Shown one piece after another: positions 31,223 through 50,843 of a stretch of DNA of 64,000 bases (positions within the stretch are counted from its first letter, which is position 1; every line of letters starts with the position of its first letter). Both the position numbers and the translations under genes were made by a program. The stretch spans positions 62,001 through 126,000 of the forward strand of contig NZ_JAEMVD010000001.1 of assembly GCF_029215975.1 (NCBI RefSeq). The letters run 5' to 3'. Below the pieces are notes generated by a model that saw nothing but the letters and a program-made list of their open reading frames with translations, was not told the origin of the DNA and did not search any database. The stretch is from Sulfurimonas sp. SAG-AH-194-C20 (GTDB lineage: Bacteria; Campylobacterota; Campylobacteria; Campylobacterales; Sulfurimonadaceae).

Positions 31223-33328
31223 ATGAGACGAAGAAAAGCAAGAACAACATTAGAAGAGTTTGATAAAACACAACTTGTTGATAGTGAGTTAATAGATAAG
31301 ATGTCTTTGTGGATACTGCGTATCATTGTAAAACTAGGTGGGGCAAGAGAGTTCATCGATACAAACAACTGTTTTCGTAACGATAACCTTGCCTACTTTC
31401 TTGAAGTAGGAGTTTTCGTTGATATGGATAGTGAGGAGTTTAAACGCAGACAAGTCCTTGCTATACTCAAAAAAAATTATACTAAATTAGAAAAAAGAAA
31501 AAGATTTACATCTGCGACTCTCCTTACTCAAAATATTCAACAGATTATAAAACTGATGGACTTAAATAGTGTAGAAAAGCAGATCTTAGAATTTTCTGTA
31601 CTTTTAAACCAGTACGAAGTACTCGATGAAGCGGCAGAACTTTTGGGAAATAGTTTAAATACCACACAAGCAAAAAAAGCTCTCTCAGGCATCCTAGATA
31701 TTCCTCTCCAAGATATAAATGCTGCGTTTAAAGCGAACTCAAAATTTAACAAGTCTTCTATCGTCTCCATAGATAAAAATGATACCCATAGTTTAGATAG
31801 AAAGATTCGCATTATTAGTGATAGTTTTGCAGATGATATGCTTAACCTTGATGAAGATGTCTCTGTCATGATAAAAGATGCAGTTCGACCTTGTGATAAA
31901 AGTACTTTAGCACTGAAGGATTATGAGCATATTAAAAATGACATAGATATCGTGATACCCTATCTTGCTAGTGCTATTGCCTCAAAAGAAGAGGGTGTAA
32001 ACATACTCTTTTACGGTTTGCCTGGAACAGGAAAAACAGAACTTGCAAAAACTATTTCACAGGTTTTAGAGACAAAACTATTTGAGATTAGTTATGCCAA
32101 CGAAGATGAAGAGGCGATAGATGGTTATGAGAGATTAAAAGCATTCAAAATAGCACAGTCACTTTTAGGTAATCAAAACATCCTGCTTATGTATGATGAG
32201 GCGGAGGATATATTTAACAGTAGTGATAGTCCTTTTGCACCTAAACGCCAAGATAACAAGGCATGGTTAAACAGAATCCTTGAGACAAATAGCATTCCCA
32301 CTATCTGGATAACTAACAATATCCACAGTATTGATAACGCTATGGTTAGACGCTTTGACTTTAGTGTAGAGATACCCATACCGAACAAAAAAAAGCGTGC
32401 TCAAATCATCAAAAACTACTCCAACAACTTACTAGATGAGAAGAGCATAAATGTCTTAGCACAAAACGAAAACATAGCACCAGCACTTATAACTCGAGCG
32501 ACAAAGGTAGTCAGTAGCTTAGAAACAAAGGACAAAGCAAAAGCCTTTACACAAGTGTTAAACAACACTCTCAAAGCACAAGGGCACAAAGAGATAAAGG
32601 AAAAAATAGCCACACTTTTACCAAATGTCTATGACCCTAAGTTCATCAACACTACAACGAACTTAGAACTTTTAACAAAGGGCATACAAAAACACCAAAA
32701 CGCGAGACTCTGTCTTTATGGTGCTGCGGGAACTGGTAAAAGTGCTTATGGGAGATACATAGCTGAGAGTCTAAACAAACCACTACTGCTTAAAAAAGGA
32801 AGTGATTTGATAAGCATGTATGTCGGTGGCACTGAGAAAAATATAGCTGCTGCGTTTACTGAGGCTAAAGAAGAAAAAGCAGTCTTAGTTTTTGATGAGG
32901 TAGATAGTTTCTTAGCAGATAGAACGCAGGCAAAGCAGAGTTGGGAAGTGACACAGGTAAACGAGATGCTCGTACAGATGGAGAATTTTGAGGGTATATT
33001 TATAGCGACGACTAATCTCATGGATAACCTTGACAAAGCAAGTCTAAGAAGATTTGATCTAAAACTTGAGTTTGACTACTTGAAATCCGAGCAGTCATGG
33101 AATATGTTTCTCTCTTACTGTAAAGACTTGAACTTAAAAAAACCATCTGTCGCATTTAAAAAAAGAGTAAAGAACTTAAAATACCTAACCCCAGGAGACT
33201 TTGCAGCAGTAACAAGACAGAACAGATTTCGCCCTATAAGTGATGTGAAAGATTTTATAAGTAGACTTGAGGATGAGGTAGCTGTTAAGCATGAGGAGAG
33301 TGGGAAGGTTATGGGGTTTTTATCATAA
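31223..33328 (+). CDS. Tandem AAA+ ATPase (two AAA modules)
   Basis: FYGLPGTGKTELAKT / ILLMYDEAEDIF and LYGAAGTGKSAYGRY / VLVFDEVDSFL. Confidence 0.88.
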   Translation: MRRRKARTTLEEFDKTQLVDSELIDKMSLWILRIIVKLGGAREFIDTNNCFRNDNLAYFLEVGVFVDMDSEEFKRRQVLAILKKNYTKLEKRKRFTSATLLTQNIQQIIKLMDLNSVEKQILEFSVLLNQYEVLDEAAELLGNSLNTTQAKKALSGILDIPLQDINAAFKANSKFNKSSIVSIDKNDTHSLDRKIRIISDSFADDMLNLDEDVSVMIKDAVRPCDKSTLALKDYEHIKNDIDIVIPYLASAIASKEEGVNILFYGLPGTGKTELAKTISQVLETKLFEISYANEDEEAIDGYERLKAFKIAQSLLGNQNILLMYDEAEDIFNSSDSPFAPKRQDNKAWLNRILETNSIPTIWITNNIHSIDNAMVRRFDFSVEIPIPNKKKRAQIIKNYSNNLLDEKSINVLAQNENIAPALITRATKVVSSLETKDKAKAFTQVLNNTLKAQGHKEIKEKIATLLPNVYDPKFINTTTNLELLTKGIQKHQNARLCLYGAAGTGKSAYGRYIAESLNKPLLLKKGSDLISMYVGGTEKNIAAAFTEAKEEKAVLVFDEVDSFLADRTQAKQSWEVTQVNEMLVQMENFEGIFIATTNLMDNLDKASLRRFDLKLEFDYLKSEQSWNMFLSYCKDLNLKKPSVAFKKRVKNLKYLTPGDFAAVTRQNRFRPISDVKDFISRLEDEVAVKHEESGKVMGFLS

Positions 33329-33837
33329 TGATCGGTTCTAGCCATAATGAAGATACGAAAGAATTTCATAAATATATAGATACTACAAAGTTTAGTAAGG
33401 AGATAGAAGAAGCTATCAAGGGTATGCTTAGAGTAGTTTTAACAAATGAGGAAAATGATATAAATCTTGATTTTGAAGATTTTAAAATTATTTTAAGTCA
33501 TGGTGGAATGGTATTTAGTGGTATTGGTGAGTATGAAGGGAAAAGTGCAGCGATAGAAGCTGTACAGTTAGCCATAAAAAATTCATCTTTGGATTACAGT
33601 TTAATGGATAAAATTACAGGGGTCTTGGTGCATTTTGTAATACATCCAGACTTAGAAATTATAAATCTTGCTGAAGCAATGGAGCTTATAAACGAAAATG
33701 CTAATGAGGAAGCTGAGATTATCTTTGGAACTACAACTAAGAACTCAGTTAGTAAGAGCTGTGTAAAAGCGACTGTTTTGTTTACAGGTTATGAAAAAAA
33801 TGAGTATAAAAATACCATACTAAATAATATCGAATAA
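33328..33837 (+). CDS. Stand-alone FtsZ C-terminal-domain-like protein without GTPase domain
   Basis: INLDFEDFKIILSHGGMVFSGIGEYEGKSAAIEAVQLAI..ITGVLVHFVIHPDLEIINLAEAMELI..EEAEIIFGTTTKN..VKATVLFTGYE matches the FtsZ C-domain pattern; no GGGTGTG tubulin signature; TAATG overlap with the AAA+ gene. Confidence 0.65.
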   Translation: MIGSSHNEDTKEFHKYIDTTKFSKEIEEAIKGMLRVVLTNEENDINLDFEDFKIILSHGGMVFSGIGEYEGKSAAIEAVQLAIKNSSLDYSLMDKITGVLVHFVIHPDLEIINLAEAMELINENANEEAEIIFGTTTKNSVSKSCVKATVLFTGYEKNEYKNTILNNIE

Positions 33838-33924: not shown

Positions 33925-34335
33925 ATGCGTTTTAAATACCAAGTTGTTAAAGAGTTATGTTCGCTAATGTTGGATGCTCAAAAAAAGATACAAGCTACTA
34001 AAGATATGACAAAAAATATAGAGAATTTAAAATGGAGTAATGAACAACATAATTTAAGACTAAAGGACTATCAATATCAATTTACAGATTTTTGTAATGT
34101 CCCAAATACAATACTTCTAGATGAAGTGATAAAAATACTGAATGAATTAGTAAATTCTAAATCAAAACTAGCTGATTTTGATGAACTTAAGTCTGATACG
34201 GAGTGGCTTAAAGAGTACTATACTGACGAGTCCTGGAATGATGTTACAAGATGGCTTTCAAATATTGACGGAACACTTCGTGAGACTTTTTCTGAGTATA
34301 TGGAAGCTCTTCAAGAGGTACATCGTAATGTGTAA
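33925..34335 (+). CDS. Hypothetical protein
   Basis: Good RBS (taggagtt) before ATG 33925; helical, no recognised domain. Confidence 0.65.
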   Translation: MRFKYQVVKELCSLMLDAQKKIQATKDMTKNIENLKWSNEQHNLRLKDYQYQFTDFCNVPNTILLDEVIKILNELVNSKSKLADFDELKSDTEWLKEYYTDESWNDVTRWLSNIDGTLRETFSEYMEALQEVHRNV

Positions 34336-34606: not shown

Positions 34607-35923
34607 TTGGAGGTTAGTATGAAGTATTATCACATGCAAATGCACCCTGATAATTTAAATGGTTATAAAAAAGAAGAAATATTGAATCTTGTAATGATGG
34701 GTTATATAGGGATAGATATAGATAGTGAGTATGCGAGCAAATTAGGAATTAATGATAAGCCTTTTACGGACTGGGGAGAAACATTACAAGTTTATGATAA
34801 AACACACAATTCATGGGATAAACAAATAACTAGTTTTTTAAGTCTGAAAAAGAATGATATTGTCGTTGTGAGACATGGCGAAAAATTTATTGCATTGGTG
34901 AAGATAGTAGGTGATTATCAATTTAATGAAATAGAAAACATTTGGTTTAGACATATGTATCAAATAAAAATATTATCAACATATAATGATTTTAAGGAAG
35001 AATATAAAATTCCAAAAGCTCAAGGAACATTTGAAGTTTCTAAAACAGGTGAAACATTTAAAGTTATTAATAAGATATATAAAAAGACTATAAAGGGTAA
35101 AGATATGCAAGAAAAAATAAACTTACTAAAAGACAGAAATCAAATTATATTGCAAGGACCTCCAGGGACTGGTAAAACAATGGTAGCTAAACAGATGGCT
35201 ATTTCAATAATTGATAGCACTTTACCTTTAGAAACAAATAATGAGATAAAGAACAGTTTAAAAACAATAAAAAAGCGAGTAAAACTTATTCAATTTCATC
35301 CATCATATAGTTATGAGGATTTTGTAAGAGGTATTGTAGCTGATTCTAGTAGTAAAACAATTACTTATAAAACGGAAAATAAAGTTTTAGCAGAGATGGC
35401 AAAAAAAGCTCTTAAAGATAAAAATAATGACTATATTTTAATTATAGATGAAATTAATAGAGCTAATCTTTCTTCGGTTTTAGGTGAGCTTATTTATGCT
35501 TTAGAATATAGAGATGAAGCTGTTGAAAGTATGTATGCTTTAGAAGATGGTAGTAGAGAAATCACTTTACCATCTAATCTATATATAATTGGGACTATGA
35601 ATACGGCAGATAGAAGTATTGGACATATTGATTATGCAATTCGAAGACGATTTGCTTTTGAGACCATTTTACCGAATAAAGATGCAATTAATTTAAAAGA
35701 GGGTGTGAAATTATTTGAAGCAGTAGAAGAAATCTTTATAGATACATCTCCTGAATTTGACAAATACGATATTTTATTAGGGCATTCTTATTTTATTGCT
35801 AAAGATACAGAAGAATTGAAAAATAAAGTTGAATACCAAATTAAACCACTTTTAAAAGAGTATGTAAAAGATGGTGTTTTGATTGACACTGCTGAATTAA
35901 GAGCAAAAATAAATACTCTATAA
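34607..35923 (+). CDS. mcrB: McrB-like AAA+ restriction NTPase
   Basis: LQGPPGTGKTMVAKQ, HPSYSYEDFVRG, LIIDEINRANLSSVLGELIYALEYR, GTMNTADRSIGHIDYAIRRRF. Confidence 0.9.
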   Translation: MEVSMKYYHMQMHPDNLNGYKKEEILNLVMMGYIGIDIDSEYASKLGINDKPFTDWGETLQVYDKTHNSWDKQITSFLSLKKNDIVVVRHGEKFIALVKIVGDYQFNEIENIWFRHMYQIKILSTYNDFKEEYKIPKAQGTFEVSKTGETFKVINKIYKKTIKGKDMQEKINLLKDRNQIILQGPPGTGKTMVAKQMAISIIDSTLPLETNNEIKNSLKTIKKRVKLIQFHPSYSYEDFVRGIVADSSSKTITYKTENKVLAEMAKKALKDKNNDYILIIDEINRANLSSVLGELIYALEYRDEAVESMYALEDGSREITLPSNLYIIGTMNTADRSIGHIDYAIRRRFAFETILPNKDAINLKEGVKLFEAVEEIFIDTSPEFDKYDILLGHSYFIAKDTEELKNKVEYQIKPLLKEYVKDGVLIDTAELRAKINTL

Positions 35924-37215
35924 TGAAATATATAGCTAAGTCTTTAGAGTATTCAAAAGATAATTTTGTTGTTCATAAAAGAGATAAGACAGCTTGGAAT
36001 GAAGAAGAATTGTCTAAATTATCTAAAGAACCAAATAAGAAATATTTAGGCTTATCAAAAAAGTATGACTATGGTAATGATAAAATATGTGTAAAACCCT
36101 ATTACTATATTGGTTACAGATGGTTTGATGAAAAGAAAGAGGAATGTATCCGTATCTCTCCTAAAAAATCAAAAGATGGAAAACAAGCTGATTATTTGAA
36201 AATGTTTTTAACCTGCCTAAAAGATCCCATTGTTTCAAAAAAAATGAATGATTGCTATGGGATTAAATTTAATGAAAAATGGATCGAAATAGAAGAAAAT
36301 GAAGATGAGATAACACCATTAATAATATTACAATTTTTAAAAGTTGTACATAATATTTCAAAAAAAGGTTTAAAAAAAGGTTATACAAAAATTACTGAAA
36401 ACCTTACCTCTAAAATAAAAGGTAAAATATTAGTCAATCAAACTATAAAGCAGAACCATTTTAAAAATAGGTTAGATAAAACTATTTGTAATCATCAGAT
36501 TTTTACAATTGACTGTATAGAGAATCAGATATTAAAAACTGCTCTTTTTCAATGTAGTAGAAATTTACAAAATATAAATAATGATGATATAACAAAACTA
36601 TTAAAGTTTAACTTGAATAGTTTTGAGTTAGTTAATACAAAAGAAATTTTCAAGAGTGATTTTTCAAAAATAAAATATTCACCCTTTTACAAGGATTACA
36701 AAGAGGCTTTAATATTGGCTCAAATGATATTTAAACGATTTGGATTTACTCTTAATAGCTCAAAAAAAGATGAGAAAATAAAAATACCACCTTTTTATAT
36801 TGATATGCCTAAGCTTTTTGAGAGATATGTTGAAGTAAAATTAAGAGAAGTTTACCCTGAAATTCTTGATGGGAATACACTAGATATAGACTTAAAATTT
36901 AAAATGAGACCTGATTTTTTATTGGCATCACAGAACATGATAATTGATGCAAAGTATAAATATTGGTTTTATAAAAACAATATCAATGATGACTTTAAGG
37001 ATGACTTTCAACAACTAAGTCTTTATGGTAGAGAAAGTAACATACGACAATATATAAATTTAGGAGATAGTAATAGAGAAGCAAATATTTTATTTATATA
37101 TCCTGAAAAATCAGCTGAAGAATATGTAAATAATATTTACAAAAATAAAGTGGATGGCTTTAATAATATATATAAATTAGGAATAAAAATTCCTTCAAAG
37201 GAAAGTGAAAGATGA
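35923..37215 (+). CDS. mcrC: McrC-like restriction endonuclease subunit
   Basis: Coupled to McrB; MRPDFLLASQNMIIDAKYKYW PD-(D/E)xK-type motif. Confidence 0.88.
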   Translation: MKYIAKSLEYSKDNFVVHKRDKTAWNEEELSKLSKEPNKKYLGLSKKYDYGNDKICVKPYYYIGYRWFDEKKEECIRISPKKSKDGKQADYLKMFLTCLKDPIVSKKMNDCYGIKFNEKWIEIEENEDEITPLIILQFLKVVHNISKKGLKKGYTKITENLTSKIKGKILVNQTIKQNHFKNRLDKTICNHQIFTIDCIENQILKTALFQCSRNLQNINNDDITKLLKFNLNSFELVNTKEIFKSDFSKIKYSPFYKDYKEALILAQMIFKRFGFTLNSSKKDEKIKIPPFYIDMPKLFERYVEVKLREVYPEILDGNTLDIDLKFKMRPDFLLASQNMIIDAKYKYWFYKNNINDDFKDDFQQLSLYGRESNIRQYINLGDSNREANILFIYPEKSAEEYVNNIYKNKVDGFNNIYKLGIKIPSKESER

Positions 37216-38681
37216 GCCTATCTAAATCTCAATACATAAGAGGCTTGCAATGTCACAAATCTTTATGGTTATATAAAAATAGATACGGTTTAAGAGATAC
37301 TCCTGACTCTCAAGCCAAGTCAAACTTTAACATAGGTTATCAAGTGGGTGATTTGGCAAAAGAGTTGTTTCCTGATGGGGTAGAGATAGTCTTTGATGGT
37401 TCTGACTTTAAGGGGATGATAGCGAAGACTAAAGAACTTATAGCTAATGGTGCAGAGGTCATCTATGAGGCTGCGTTTAGTGATAATGGTATCTTTGCTA
37501 TGGCAGACATCTTAGTCAAAAATGCTAAGGCTTGGGATATTTACGAGGTTAAGGCCTCTACTCACACTAAAGAGTACCACAAAAATGATACAGCCGTTCA
37601 GTGGTATGCACTCTCAAACACCATCACACTTAACCGCGCTTATGTGGTGCATATAAACAACAAGTATGTACGAAATGGTGAGTTGGATGTTAAGGCACTA
37701 TTGAGTATTGATGATATTACAGATATTGTATTACAAAAGCAAGAGAGTATACCACTTGAACTTCTTGAGATGGAGGAGATGCTTGAGGGTGCTGTGCCAA
37801 ACATTGACATCGGGAAGCACTGTAGCGACCCTTATGGGTGTGATTTTTCTTCGCACTGCTGGAGTCATCTGCCTAAAGAAGACTCAGTATTTGACATCTC
37901 TTATGCTATGGGAAAACAATGGAAACTTTACTATCAGGGGATACTCAGCATAAATGATGTTCCTAATAATTTTCACCTTGGTAAAAATGCTCGTACTCAG
38001 ATACGGCATCATAAATCACAAGAGATAAAGATAGACAAAAAAAAGATACAAGAGTTTTTAGAAACTATAGAGTACCCTATAAACTTCTTTGATTTTGAAA
38101 CTTTTCAAAATGCTATTCCAAGGTTTGATAATCAAAGACCTTATTCTCAGATGCCATTTCAGTATTCACTACATATCTTACATGAAGATGGAACTTTAGA
38201 GCATAAAGAGTTTTTAGGAGATGAAAATAGTGACCCTAGAAGACCGTTATCAGAGCAGATGTTAAAAGAGATTACACCAACTGGTTCAATCATAGCTTTT
38301 AATCAATCGTTTGAGATAACACAGATTAAGAACTTAGCTTTAGTGTGTTCTGACATTAGTGATGAACTTTTGGCTTTAAATGAGAGATTTATAGACCTTG
38401 CACACCCATTCCAATATAAACACTACTATCATCCAAAATTTAACGGTAAATACTCTATAAAAATTGTTTTACCAACACTCTTTCCAGATGATGATGAACT
38501 CGACTATAAAAAACTTGGCTCTATTCAAAATGGTGGGGATGCTATGGATACTTTTGCCAACTTACACCTACTCAAGGACAAGAGTCTCTTAGTCGGGATA
38601 AAAAAAGACCTACTTGCTTACTGTCGGCTTGATACTTTGGCTATGGTTCGGATTTGGGAAAAGTTAAGAAATATATATTAG
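37212..38681 (+). CDS. DUF2779-type nuclease (Cas4/RecB-like N-terminus plus DnaQ-like exonuclease)
   Basis: SKSQYIRGLQCHKSLWLYK; AMADILVKNAKAWDIYEVKAST; DPYGCDFSSHCW; NFFDFETFQNAIP; CRLDTLAMV. Confidence 0.85.
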   Translation: MSLSKSQYIRGLQCHKSLWLYKNRYGLRDTPDSQAKSNFNIGYQVGDLAKELFPDGVEIVFDGSDFKGMIAKTKELIANGAEVIYEAAFSDNGIFAMADILVKNAKAWDIYEVKASTHTKEYHKNDTAVQWYALSNTITLNRAYVVHINNKYVRNGELDVKALLSIDDITDIVLQKQESIPLELLEMEEMLEGAVPNIDIGKHCSDPYGCDFSSHCWSHLPKEDSVFDISYAMGKQWKLYYQGILSINDVPNNFHLGKNARTQIRHHKSQEIKIDKKKIQEFLETIEYPINFFDFETFQNAIPRFDNQRPYSQMPFQYSLHILHEDGTLEHKEFLGDENSDPRRPLSEQMLKEITPTGSIIAFNQSFEITQIKNLALVCSDISDELLALNERFIDLAHPFQYKHYYHPKFNGKYSIKIVLPTLFPDDDELDYKKLGSIQNGGDAMDTFANLHLLKDKSLLVGIKKDLLAYCRLDTLAMVRIWEKLRNIY

Positions 38682-38690
38682 GAAAAGAAA

Positions 38691-39152
38691 ATGGAACTTG
38701 TTACAAACAATGGAACTAAAAAGCATAAACACCATATTATAGAATTAATTAAATCATCAGATCGAATAATCATTAGTTCAGGATGGATGAAGATGGATGG
38801 ATTAAAAAAGCTTAAAATATGTTTAGATATCGCTGTAAAAAACAATGCCAAAATTACAATATACTCAGACCATCAAAACACTAAGGATGGGGTAAGAGAA
38901 TTTCTAAATACATATAAAACAATAGAGCATATAATAACAAAAAAGAATGAAACTTTACATTCAAAGATATATTATTTTGAACAAGAAAAGAGTTTTACTA
39001 CATTAATTGGATCTGCTAATATCACTCATGGTGGGTTATATTCTAGTGATGAGCTATCTGTAAAAATTACAGGACTAATTGGTGATAAGAATTACTTGAG
39101 TATTTGGAAATATTTAAGTGATTTGTCTGTAAAATATCAAAAGCATGATTAA
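38691..39152 (+). CDS. Phospholipase D-like (single HxK) nuclease
   Basis: LHSKIYYFEQEKSFTTLIGSANITHGGL. Confidence 0.75.
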   Translation: MELVTNNGTKKHKHHIIELIKSSDRIIISSGWMKMDGLKKLKICLDIAVKNNAKITIYSDHQNTKDGVREFLNTYKTIEHIITKKNETLHSKIYYFEQEKSFTTLIGSANITHGGLYSSDELSVKITGLIGDKNYLSIWKYLSDLSVKYQKHD

Positions 39153-39191: not shown

Positions 39192-40109
39192 ATGGCATAT
39201 AAACACGACTACGATAAAATATTAACACGATTAACAACGATACTATCACGTTTAAATGATGGTGAAGCACTCTCTGTTAAAGAGTTGGCAACAGAGTTCA
39301 ATACTAGTCCTCGAACGATTCAAAGAGATTTTAATGAACGACTTCTCTCTTTTCCTATCTATCAAGAAAACAAAAAATGGAAGATGCAAGATGGCTTTAG
39401 AGTGGAGAAGACTAAATCTCTTGAAGATGAGATAGTTCTAGACATCATTGAAAAAATCACCGAAGGCATTGGTGGTACTTTTTCGACCAAAGCCCACACC
39501 TTAATTTCAAAAATCAAAAATGAAGATTTTAACCCTATCTACACGAAGTTAAATATAGAAGATATTAGTGAAAAGTTTGGAGATATACAAGTTTTAGAAA
39601 CTGCAATTAGAGAAAAAAGGAAGGTAGAGTACTCTTACAACAATGAAAAGCATCCTCCTTACACAACGACTATTAAACCTCTGAAAATTGTGAATTTTGA
39701 AGGGTTTTGGTATTTAATCGCACTAAGAAATGACACACTTAAAAAATACTACCTCAAAAATATCTCTCATACTAAGATAAGAGATGAGTATTTTATAACG
39801 GGTGATGACCTAGACAAACTTCTTGATGATTCCATATCTGTGTGGTTTCAAAAAGATGTAAAACCTTTTGAAGTAAAACTATTTGCAAATAAAGTGGCAG
39901 CCAAGTTTTTTAAACGCCGTCCTCTTCCAACACAAAGTATAGAGTCTATACATCAAGATGGCACTATGGAGTTTAGTGTGAAGATAACCCATGAGATGGA
40001 AATACTTCCTATAATAAAGTACTGGATTCCTCATCTTTTTGTACTTGAGCCCCAATGGATAAAAGAGATGATTCAAAAAGACTTGAAACAGTATGCACAA
40101 GAGATGTAA
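39192..40109 (+). CDS. WYL-domain HTH transcriptional regulator
   Basis: VKELATEFNTSPRTIQRDFNERL; KVEYSYNNEKHPPYTTTIKPLKIVNFEGFWYLIAL. Confidence 0.88.
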   Translation: MAYKHDYDKILTRLTTILSRLNDGEALSVKELATEFNTSPRTIQRDFNERLLSFPIYQENKKWKMQDGFRVEKTKSLEDEIVLDIIEKITEGIGGTFSTKAHTLISKIKNEDFNPIYTKLNIEDISEKFGDIQVLETAIREKRKVEYSYNNEKHPPYTTTIKPLKIVNFEGFWYLIALRNDTLKKYYLKNISHTKIRDEYFITGDDLDKLLDDSISVWFQKDVKPFEVKLFANKVAAKFFKRRPLPTQSIESIHQDGTMEFSVKITHEMEILPIIKYWIPHLFVLEPQWIKEMIQKDLKQYAQEM

Positions 40110-46896: not shown

Positions 46897-48025
46897 TTGG
46901 GAGTAAACAAAGATTTATTTACAAATGATTGTAAAAAAAGCTCAAAAATATGTATAAATTTTCAATCTAAAAATGTTATTTCTAAGGGTCTAAGAAGAGG
47001 AATAAAACGATATTTTTGTAAAGATTGCAAAGTGTCTTTCAGCTCAAAAAGAAGACCAGAGCAACAACAAAAAATTATTTTCGAAGAGTACTTTTTACAT
47101 CGTCAAACTCTAAAACAATTATTCGTTAAATATGCTAGATCAATTAGCTGGATTGTGAAGCAAAGAGATGAATATATTGTTGATTTTAAAGTTCATACCC
47201 TCAAGGGGCACCCCGTAATCCACGACCTGTAAATCTAATTTGTGATGCTACTTTTTATGGAAAGAGGAAAGACGGGGTGCCCCTTGAGGGTATAAGTTAG
47301 GCACCTTAGTATTTAAAGATAATGAGACTAAAGAAATACTCATTTGGAAGCATATTCAAAGTGAAATAGTTCAAGACTACAAATATTTAAAGGAAGAGCT
47401 ACTGGCTCGCAGATATACAATCACAAGCGCAACTTTAGATGGTAAAAAAGGCTTGTATAAGGCCTTTAAAGATATTCCAATACAAATGTGTACCGCAAGG
47501 GCATCAACACCATTTCCATCAAAAGAAGATTGTACAGCGATATTTAACTATGAGACCAAAATTACAAGCTAGTAAAGATCTTTAGAAAATAGTTTCGAGG
47601 CTAACTCTTTCAACAGAGAAAAACTTCACAAATAAACTAGATGTACCCCAAGAGTATTTCATCCCTTCGGTCAGGGCAATGGTACGAAAATTATAAAGAT
47701 TTTTTAGAGGAAAAAAGTGTATCAAACACTACTGGAAAACTTCACTATACCCATCCAAGAATTAGAGCAGCTTATGGGATGCCCCTTGAGGGTACAGAAG
47801 TTTACGAACAAATTTACTTTACCTTTTTACCTATAAAAACTACAAGCATTTATCCATCTCAAATACAACAAATGCACTCGTACCGCAAGGGCATAAAAAA
47901 AGGTAGAGTATTTTCACATATGAAAAATATGATTAGTTTGCATCGCGGACTAAGTAAAAGTTTGAAGCTAAATTTAGTTGATTATTATTTGGTGAATTAT
48001 AAGAAAAAGCAGAAAACTAAGCACC
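46897..48025 (+). pseudogene. Disrupted transposase (copy 1)
   Basis: Reading frame restored only by removing 20+20+19+34+20+19 nt; also an in-frame TAG after DL (gatctttag). Confidence 0.85.
47195..47293. repeat. 22-bp perfect inverted repeat formed by two opposite 20-nt insertions
   Basis: ATACCCTCAAGGGGCACCCCGT (47195-47216) / ACGGGGTGCCCCTTGAGGGTAT (47272-47293). Confidence 0.9.
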
Positions 48026-48214
48026 CGTTTTTACTATTAAGTCTCTTTATCAATCATACTCTCTCCAAATATTTATTTGAAGTTATAGTATCTTTTTTAC
48101 TTAATAAAGTGGTGCACTTTTAGTTTGCACTACTGGTGTATTTTACCTTTGCACTTGACAATAAGTCGCTGCTAGGCTACTTATTGGCTACTATGTTTTG
48201 TTGTATCTGAACTT

Positions 48215-48496
48215 TTAAGACGGTTTGTTTTGATTGAAAATATTTAGTATTTCAATACTGTTGTCTTCTAAATTGATCTCGTAGTTTATAGTGTGTTTCT
48301 TATAGATTAAATCTCGTATATTTTTATCACTAAAATAAATTGATTGTCTATATTTAAATGGAAAATTTGGAATATTTTTTATGAGTTTATCTAATTCTTG
48401 TTGAAATTTTTTACTAGCACTAACTTTATCTTTGGCGATATTCTGTAAAGTTACCAAAAGATTTATTTGAAATTTTCTTGAACGAATTATTTTCAT
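48215..48496 (-). CDS. ParE/RelE-type toxin
   Basis: FQQELDKLIKNIPNFPFKYRQSIYFSDKNIRDLIYKKHTINYEI. Confidence 0.75.
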   Translation of the reverse strand: MKIIRSRKFQINLLVTLQNIAKDKVSASKKFQQELDKLIKNIPNFPFKYRQSIYFSDKNIRDLIYKKHTINYEINLEDNSIEILNIFNQNKPS

Positions 48497-48498
48497 AC

Positions 48499-48744
48499 TT
48501 ATTTTTCAAATTCTAAAAAAAACTGCTCTATCTCTTTTTCATATTGTTCTTCAGATAACATTTCCATTTTACCACTTTTAATGTCATCTCTAATTTGATG
48601 TAACTTTTTTTGTCTCTCATAAAAATAAGGGTCAAGTTCTAAATTCTTATCTTGTTTTATTACTATATTGTCACTATGATTATTAACATAGTTCATAAAG
48701 TCACCAACATAATCATCTTGAACTTGAATTGCTATATTTTGCAT
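48499..48744 (-). CDS. Cognate antitoxin
   Basis: Two nt upstream of the toxin; small charged protein MQNIAIQVQDDYVGDFMNYVNN. Confidence 0.7.
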   Translation of the reverse strand: MQNIAIQVQDDYVGDFMNYVNNHSDNIVIKQDKNLELDPYFYERQKKLHQIRDDIKSGKMEMLSEEQYEKEIEQFFLEFEK

Positions 48745-48793
48745 AATGTACTCCACTTTTGAATTAAGCACATTATAGCAAAAATTCAGTAAA

Positions 48794-49189
48794 TTAAGCT
48801 CCTGTTATAATCATAACTATTTCTACAAAATTCTCTTCTACGGTATCATCAAATGAAGTTGCAAATGCCATGGCACATTCGTCATGAATAACTTCATATG
48901 CAATATCTATATGCTTCTGTATATCTACAACACTATAGTGAGCAGATATATGAAAATAAAAAAAGACACAACTAGCATTGGCTAAGATATCGCTATTTGT
49001 TTCACATAATGTAGATATTGACTTTTGTATTGCAGACTCACCATGAGTTATACATCTGTCAATATATGCCGACCCTCCAACTTCCATAAAGTCTATATAG
49101 TCTGTATGACTAAGATTAAAATCTACGGCTTTTGGGCTTGTGAGTTGTTTAAATTCATTTACTAGTTCTTCTCTTGATAGTTTAGTCAA
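48794..49189 (-). CDS. Second stand-alone FtsZ C-terminal-domain-like protein
   Basis: VDFNLSHTDYIDFMEVGGSAYIDRCITHGESAIQKSIS..ILANASCVFFYFHISAHYSVVDIQKHIDIAYEVIHDECAMAFATSFDDTVEENFVEIVMIITGA. Confidence 0.55.
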   Translation of the reverse strand: MTKLSREELVNEFKQLTSPKAVDFNLSHTDYIDFMEVGGSAYIDRCITHGESAIQKSISTLCETNSDILANASCVFFYFHISAHYSVVDIQKHIDIAYEVIHDECAMAFATSFDDTVEENFVEIVMIITGA

Positions 49190-49762: not shown

Positions 49763-50843
49763 TTGGGAGTAAACAAAGATTTATTTACAAATGATTGTAA
49801 AAAAAGCTCAAAAATATGTATAAATTTTCAATCTAAAAATGTTATTTCTAAGGGTCTAAGAAGAGGAATAAAACGATATTTTTGTAAAGATTGCAAAGTG
49901 TCTTTCAGCTCAAAAAGAAGACCAGAGCAACAACAAAAAATTATTTTCGAAGAGTACTTTTTACATCGTCAAACTCTAAAACAATTATTCGTTAAATATG
50001 CTAGATCAATTAGCTGGATTGTGAAGCAAAGAGATGAATATATTGTTGATTTTAAAGTTCATACCCTCAAGGGGCACCCCGTAATCCACGACCTGTAAAT
50101 CTAATTTGTGATGCTACTTTTTATGGAAAGAGGAAAGACGGGGTGCCCCTTGAGGGTATAAGTTAGGCACCTTAGTATTTAAAGATAATGAGACTAAAGA
50201 AATACTCATTTGGAAGCATATTCAAAGTGAAATAGTTCAAGACTACAAATATTTAAAGGAAGAGCTACTGGCTCGAGGATATACAATCACAAGCGCAACT
50301 TTAGATGGTAAAAAAGGCTTGTATAAGGCCTTTAAAGATATTCCAATACAAATGTGTACCGCAAGGGCATCAACACCATTTCCATCAAAAGAAGATTGTA
50401 CAGCGATATTTAACTATGAGACCAAAACTACAAGCTAGTAAAGATCTTAAGAAAATAGTTTCACGACTTACTCAGACTACAGAGAAAAACTTCACCCAAA
50501 AACTAGATGAGTGGCATGGTATTTACAAAGACTTTTTAGATGAAAAAAGCACCTCTTCAACAACAAGTAAACTTCATTATACTCATCCAAGAATTAGAGC
50601 TGCTTATAGAAGCTTACAAACAAATTTACCTTACCTTTTTACATACAAAAACTATAAACATTTATCAATTTTATATATGCCCTTGCGGTACAAACACAAC
50701 AAATGCACTTGTACCGCAAGGGCATAAAAAAAGGTGGAGTGTTCTCACACATGAAAAATATGATTAGTCTGCATCGTGGATTGAGTAAAAGTTTGAAGCT
50801 GAATTTAGTTGATTATTATTTGGTGAATTATAAGAAAAAGTAG
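49763..50843 (+). pseudogene. Disrupted transposase (copy 2)
   Basis: Frame restored by removing 20+20+19+19+19 nt; reconstructed LICDATFYG, SATLDGKKGLYKAF and NTTNALEGGVFSHMKN. Confidence 0.85.
50672..50730. repeat. Opposed 19-nt insertions forming an inverted repeat
   Basis: ATGCCCTTGCGGTAC ... GTACCGCAAGGGCAT. Confidence 0.9.

Follow-up and report, generated by a model that had tools for sequence, protein, structure and literature searches.

Relation to described systems

The bacterial division protein FtsZ can serve as a signal of infection. Gp0.4 of phage T7 binds FtsZ and has been modelled, like SulA and MciZ, on the synergy-loop surface of the FtsZ C-terminal region, and the Gp0.4–FtsZ complex activates the CapRel-Ebc system (Zhang et al. 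2026, PMC13423816). Because that complex activates CapRel-Ebc, the synergy-loop face is a real immune trigger. Here we describe a gene pair from Sulfurimonas sp. SAG-AH-194-C20 (contig NZ_JAEMVD010000001.1, positions 62,001 to 126,000; this stretch of 64,000 nucleotides is referred to as the window) that encodes a tandem AAA+ ATPase and a 169-aa protein with the FtsZ C-terminal domain (FtsZ_C) and no GTPase domain. The 169-aa protein carries the FtsZ surface bound by Gp0.4 as an independent unit. We tentatively propose, at somewhat less than an even chance, that it is a decoy, or bait, for division inhibitors that is coupled to exchangeable effectors, the partner gene (here the AAA+ ATPase) being the responder. 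The likeness to CapRel-Ebc lies in the signal, which is FtsZ in the grip of a phage inhibitor at the synergy-loop face; however, CapRel-Ebc employs the cell's own full FtsZ and a fused toxin–antitoxin sensor, whereas in the window a dedicated half-FtsZ is encoded with an AAA+ ATPase, and elsewhere with other genes (PMC13423816). If the decoy reading holds, the pair would be a variant of host-target sensing with a predicted function.

Other described systems share single traits with the pair. FtsZl-1 and FtsZl-2 are divergent FtsZ relatives, in part equipped with membrane helices, that are kept in addition to normal FtsZ (Makarova and Koonin 2010, PMC2875224). FtsZl-1 retains the N-terminal GTPase domain, has no recognisable FtsZ C-domain and sits in a vWA gene context, whereas the window protein is the reverse (PMC2875224): the set of features that marks FtsZl-1 (N-terminal FtsZ-like domain, coiled coil, vWA operon partner) was not found, there being no N-terminal domain in the protein and no vWA neighbour in its island. 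The Iet system, composed of the AAA+ ATPase IetA and the protease IetS, resembles the pair in its AAA module (PADLOC IetA, E = 1.2e-44), but the window ATPase reaches 125 bits against an NCBIfam cut-off of 510, has two AAA modules and has no protease partner; a neighbour like the subtilisin-like IetS was found neither in the window island nor in the related loci viewed. PADLOC returned no match for the FtsZ_C protein, and a known defence family for the pair was rejected on the ground that the ATPase shows similarity to IetA at the AAA level only. Panacea (PanA, PMC8832971), a hyperpromiscuous antitoxin domain, is likewise a small domain coupled to many unrelated partners; the resemblance is in partner variety alone, and a sequence relation to FtsZ_C is not expected. 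For the nucleoside triphosphate-dependent conflict systems, inactive copies of host enzymes have been proposed as decoys, and tubulin/FtsZ homologues are named among the effectors (eLife 2020, PMC7159879); those systems are centred on MoxR–vWA or on GTPases, whereas the passages covered here describe no p97-like double AAA+ protein followed by an FtsZ C-domain on its own (PMC7159879). The literature covered, lying outside most subscription journals and all preprints, holds no description of an isolated FtsZ C-domain coupled to an AAA+ ATPase. The searched libraries did not yield such a make-up either, in agreement with the first-pass annotation of the window, which knew of no characterised module of this kind.

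Phage and plasmid origins were also considered and rejected. With tblastn, phage records gave weak FtsZ matches in unannotated records only; in IMG/VR the FtsZ_C protein had one false match, inside a phage structural-type open reading frame (ORF), and the ATPase had none. Plasmid matches were mostly annotated normal ftsZ, the best of them (C. jejuni pCJ41K-01) being a normal ftsA–ftsZ stretch.

An isolated FtsZ C-terminal domain under selection

Both genes lie on the forward strand, that for the 701-aa ATPase at 31223–33328 and that for the 169-aa FtsZ_C protein at 33328–33837. They meet in a TAATG overlap (33326–33330), in which the ATPase stop TAA is 33326–33328 and the FtsZ_C start ATG is 33328–33330. 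The overlap suggests that the two products may be translated together in stoichiometric amounts.

The 169-aa product matches Pfam FtsZ_C over residues 60–155 (E = 1e-14, 55 bits, cut-off 27). It covers the NCBIfam ftsZ profile solely at positions 193–331 of 353 (73 bits versus a cut-off of 295), so the GTPase domain is absent; by the same profile no N-terminal domain with the motif GGGTG[ST]G was found. The tail of host FtsZ, ..YLDIPAYMRQQQD, is missing as well, and with it the conserved C-terminal peptide that binds FtsA, ZipA or SepF: the protein ends ..NTILNNIE, host FtsZ ..DIPAYMRQQQD. Sequence comparison with solved FtsZ structures gives E = 7e-15. An AlphaFold model built with 12 family members is of moderate confidence (predicted local distance difference test, pLDDT, 74.5; predicted template-modelling score, pTM, 0.71); Foldseek matches it to FtsZ in the PDB (E = 2.8e-11, probability 1.00), and it superposes on several FtsZ structures at ∼2 Å over 110–112 columns (for example 1ofu and 6ym9, 2.0–2.1 Å over 110–111 columns). 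The first-pass annotation had placed here, from the letters of the DNA, an isolated FtsZ C-terminal domain without the tubulin GTPase domain, translationally coupled to a tandem AAA+ ATPase. Its coordinates, frames and TAATG overlap were all reproduced, the coupling is supported by that overlap and the tandem make-up of the ATPase by its two AAA modules, the domain assignment is confirmed by Pfam, NCBIfam and the fold match, and the structure prediction that it proposed as a check came out in favour of FtsZ.

Among seven close FtsZ_C-only orthologues, dN/dS (the ratio of nonsynonymous to synonymous substitution rates) is 0.19–0.44, which places the gene under purifying selection. These values, obtained across diverged copies, together with the intact fold and the recurrent joined contexts described below, make it very improbable that such genes are debris, that is, functionless FtsZ leftovers carried along in a hypervariable island, even though a frameshift or decay has affected some copies (G106, G058; labels of this form denote the genomes compared). 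The normal ftsZ of the window's genome is on a separate contig (G000:C22) and a third FtsZ_C-like gene of that genome on another; a close relative of the 169-aa protein is present in a Sulfurimonas metagenome-assembled genome.

Conservation of the synergy loop

The codons at 33454–33480 (forward strand) align with the synergy (T7) loop and encode NDINLDFED, residues 43–51. D51, which from the NxDxxD motif we take to be the equivalent of the catalytic D212 of E. coli FtsZ, is kept in all 28 of the 28 FtsZ-type island proteins. As a measure of conservation we used the fraction of columns at least 90% conserved in host FtsZ that island proteins keep. This fraction averages 48% for the 28 proteins and rises to 68% at residues 43–51 (random-subset p = 0.004), the corresponding figures for the 19 C-only proteins being 43% and 67% (p = 0.0016); the p-values are indicative only, because the sequences are related and were retrieved by a family profile. 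No other contiguous stretch in the 28 proteins is as well conserved relative to host FtsZ. The surface that a host-target decoy would need to keep is therefore the one kept best, the synergy-loop stretch belonging to the face assigned to Gp0.4, SulA and MciZ (PMC13423816).

In the decoy reading, the bait would have kept the synergy-loop face as the half to which inhibitors bind, and lost the GTPase domain and the divisome-tethering tail. It would be made in step with the AAA+ ATPase, and would either form a complex with it or regulate it. A division inhibitor encoded by a phage or by a stress response, in gripping the synergy-loop face, would bind the bait, and the bait, once altered, would activate both the AAA+ unfoldase and the response of the island, with an anti-phage outcome; elsewhere the same bait would be wired to SIR2, Fic, PcfJ-like, GIY-YIG-like or ParE proteins.

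Several points weigh against this proposal. We know of no Sulfurimonas phages with FtsZ inhibitors, and since CapRel-Ebc relies on the cell's own FtsZ, a dedicated decoy is not required. The profile by which the related test sequences were retrieved favours conserved positions. D51 corresponds to the GTP-hydrolysis residue that an FtsZ subunit gives to the adjacent one, and its invariance would be expected of a protein that docks on FtsZ no less than of one that binds inhibitors. Finally, neighbouring genes of bacteria commonly overlap, so that an overlap by itself says little for a complex; we therefore place weight on the variety of partners and not on the overlap.

Docking on FtsZ is the basis of an alternative that we regard as unlikely but serious, in which the protein is an FtsZ-capping effector. 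Its synergy loop would attach to host FtsZ filaments at their GTP face and cap them or strip their GTP, division would stop, and the coupled genes would time its release. Such an effector would account for the synergy loop and the catalytic aspartate being the most conserved features, for the loss of the GTPase half, which is the part that would let the filament continue, and for purifying selection on the gene. Against it, typical effectors (SIR2, Fic, ParE) are partners of FtsZ_C elsewhere, so that a constant sensor or regulator fits better than a constant toxin, and several copies per genome would be a burden.

The ATPase and its neighbours

PF00004 matches two stretches of the upstream ORF (E = 9e-43), which correspond to two AAA modules, D1 (GLPGTGKT, LLMYDE, RRFD) and D2 (GAAGTGKS, VLVFDE, a pore-loop-like SMYVGG, RRFD). 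Walker A, Walker B, sensor 1 and RRFD are intact in both and are retained across 15 relatives, save for one with RRFN in D1; D2 of these relatives has an aromatic, pore-loop-like YVGG or WVGG. Substrate-threading AAA proteins have aromatic pore loops of this sort, and a threading role is probable for the ATPase too. The ATPase is present in 22 of the 135 Sulfurimonas genomes, mostly at 50–80% identity over the full length, and in 40 of the 397 genomes of the phylum.

An unfoldase of this kind would also suit an adaptor role for the C-domain, which would bind FtsZ and bring the ATPase to it so that FtsZ filaments are pulled apart, in the manner of ClpXP acting on FtsZ. The intact motifs of both modules and the D2 aromatic of the 15 relatives are as this role would have them, and the genes overlap in both the window and G516, yet we consider it quite unlikely, for the ATPase often occurs without an FtsZ neighbour (in Campylobacter-like genomes and at PcfJ and SIR2 loci) and FtsZ_C is in turn frequently found where the ATPase is missing. 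As a capping protein would need the same invariant aspartate, both capping and adaptor stay in play. The role against the cell's own divisome that the first-pass annotation had suggested may thus be one among several possible mechanisms.

An FtsZ module or a remnant of one adjoins the ATPase in the window and in G106, G052, G011, G163, G140, G058 and G516. The order in G106 is ATPase, an FtsZ GTPase half with a transmembrane anchor (Pfam Tubulin, E = 4.7e-25), a sigma70 region 4-like helix-turn-helix (HTH) protein, a frameshifted C-half and W138. The last is an all-helical protein without an informative fold match in the PDB, which in the window is encoded at 33925–34335 (forward strand) and which follows the FtsZ module behind the ATPase also in G106 and G516. 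G052 and G011 have ATPase, HTH and C-half, G163 and G140 the ATPase with an FtsZ GTPase half, and G058 a decayed ATPase and HTH; in G516, from another family of the order, the ATPase is 73% identical and a 239-aa FtsZ-like protein overlaps it by 26 bp, followed by W138. The window locus resembles that of G106 minus the GTPase half and the HTH, the two loci having in common both the junction and the spacer ahead of W138. In G000 contig 34, G005, G021, G167 and G483 the module shares an island with the ATPase without adjoining it, and other genomes have a PcfJ-like, SIR2 or FtsK-gamma gene behind the ATPase or no FtsZ neighbour (Campylobacter-like genomes). The idea of a dedicated AAA+/FtsZ-C pair is accordingly not supported in the form in which it was put, as neighbours are swappable among the 22 ATPase genomes and FtsZ_C is joined to other genes elsewhere; what stands of the conservation of the pair is that an FtsZ module lies beside the ATPase in several genomes, though not as an obligate two-gene module.

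The G106 row, the presence of both halves in a cluster of G068, and the ATPase with an N-half in G163 and G140 raise the possibility of a split FtsZ, whose C-half and membrane-anchored GTPase half would re-form a filament or GTP switch that the AAA+ protein drives or dismantles, with only the C-half retained in the window. We judge this improbable, and marginally more so than the antitoxin-like role taken up below: both halves occur at one AAA locus only, where the C-half is frameshifted, most C-only loci have no N-half nearby, and the window's own genome (66% complete) shows only normal FtsZ. Whatever becomes of the decoy reading, an FtsZ half that occurs naturally under selection without its GTPase domain is an unusual tool for probing each face of FtsZ alone, as is a split FtsZ whose GTPase half is anchored in the membrane.

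Exchangeable partners of FtsZ_C

FtsZ_C-only or GTPase-degenerate FtsZ proteins were found in at least 23 of the 135 Sulfurimonas genomes and are rare outside the genus. They are joined by an overlap or a short gap to unrelated genes, namely AAA+ (window, G516), SIR2 (G000 contig 34, G044), Fic (G116), PcfJ-like (G142), leucine-rich repeat (G002, G127) and GIY-YIG-like (G154 and G146, assigned by eye without a Pfam match) genes and a ParE pair (the second copy in the window), and their loci usually lie near a WYL regulator.

A single small domain with many unrelated coupled partners is also what a promiscuous antitoxin-like protein would look like, one that neutralises a co-encoded toxin or enzyme, as Panacea does, its FtsZ ancestry being incidental. 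This we find improbable, since it leaves the conserved synergy loop unexplained and some of the partners are not toxins.

A single origin for all FtsZ-like island proteins was rejected: a core clade of 13 stands apart from host FtsZ (96/90), and other long branches are unplaceable. Locus L043 of G068 (816–2547) encodes, intact and on one strand, an HTH protein, a degenerate FtsZ GTPase half, a 104-aa protein and an FtsZ C-half. In G483, from another genus, one island (L166, 2028–11831) combines the AAA+ gene, a divergent FtsZ-like gene, two HTHs, W138, SIR2, GIY-YIG-like and WYL genes. A truncated FtsZ duplicate directly follows normal ftsZ in the Campylobacter-like genome G175 (L178, 6460–7110), apparently through an independent event.

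Other detached host-protein domains

The same islands hold pieces of further essential host proteins: FtsK-gamma (three stand-alone and one fused to an FtsZ N-part), IF2_N (two), DnaB_C (two), a truncated HU and the sigma70 region 4-like HTH. Some of these detached domains are plausible phage targets, and the HTH may be an ordinary regulator. The possibility that the small HTH is copied from the cell's RpoD was considered and rejected, its sole match in the cell's genome being 41% over 33 aa; as that genome is 66% complete, mimicry of host RpoD is not established.

By extension of the decoy reading, the Sulfurimonas islands could hold an interchangeable set of domains detached from essential host proteins (FtsZ C- and N-halves, sigma70 region 4, FtsK-gamma, IF2_N and DnaB_C). 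Every member of the set would act as bait for a protein with which a phage takes over the cell, and would be connected either to an exchangeable effector or to a p97-like AAA+ ATPase, a form of integrated-decoy immunity; we regard this as doubtful, though not far-fetched. If true, bacteria would keep separate versions of the vulnerable parts of their essential proteins for the purpose of signalling infection, much like the integrated decoys of plants, and the short orphan genes of defence islands would as a class find an explanation.

The stand-alone FtsK-gamma mini-proteins are at L122:8493-8705, L081:6971-7159 and L082:7933-8121, that of L082 directly behind the AAA gene. The fused form is a 171-aa protein at L123:5101-5613 (G126) that joins FtsK-gamma (E = 1.6e-13) to an FtsZ GTPase N-part (E = 1.8e-23). 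IF2_N occurs in 230-aa proteins near FtsZ-like genes (L048:5636-6322, L123:2585-3280), one with a weak DnaB_C match behind it, and truncated DnaB_C fragments lie near FtsZ_C genes at L045:4259-4651 and L039:3262-3639 (E = 4e-10 and 1e-6).

Island setting and a second FtsZ_C copy

Beyond W138, the forward strand of the window carries a McrB-like AAA_5 GTPase/ATPase gene (34607–35923), a neighbouring defence gene; a McrC-like gene (35923–37215; Pfam McrBC, E = 1.9e-33); a DUF2779 gene with Cas4-like/RNase H-like similarity (37212–38681), which recurs in related islands; a phospholipase D (PLD)-like gene of NgoFVII/DrmC-like type (38691–39152); and a WYL-domain regulator (39192–40109), a recurrent island marker whose family is found in most related islands. 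These McrBC, DUF2779, PLD and WYL genes downstream of the pair agree with the defence island noted in the first-pass annotation. The genes past WYL, on the opposite strand, are presumably housekeeping ones, including a mutY-like gene.

A second, more diverged FtsZ_C-like protein of 131 aa is encoded on the reverse strand at 48794–49189 (family profile E = 9.9e-18 among window ORFs; Pfam FtsZ_C 0.039). Directly downstream, on the same strand, are a small putative antitoxin and then a ParE toxin (48215–48771; ParE_toxin, E = 7.6e-8). Two copies of one transposase-like gene (46897–48123 and 49763–50843) bracket this FtsZ_C/ParE stretch in the manner of a composite transposon.
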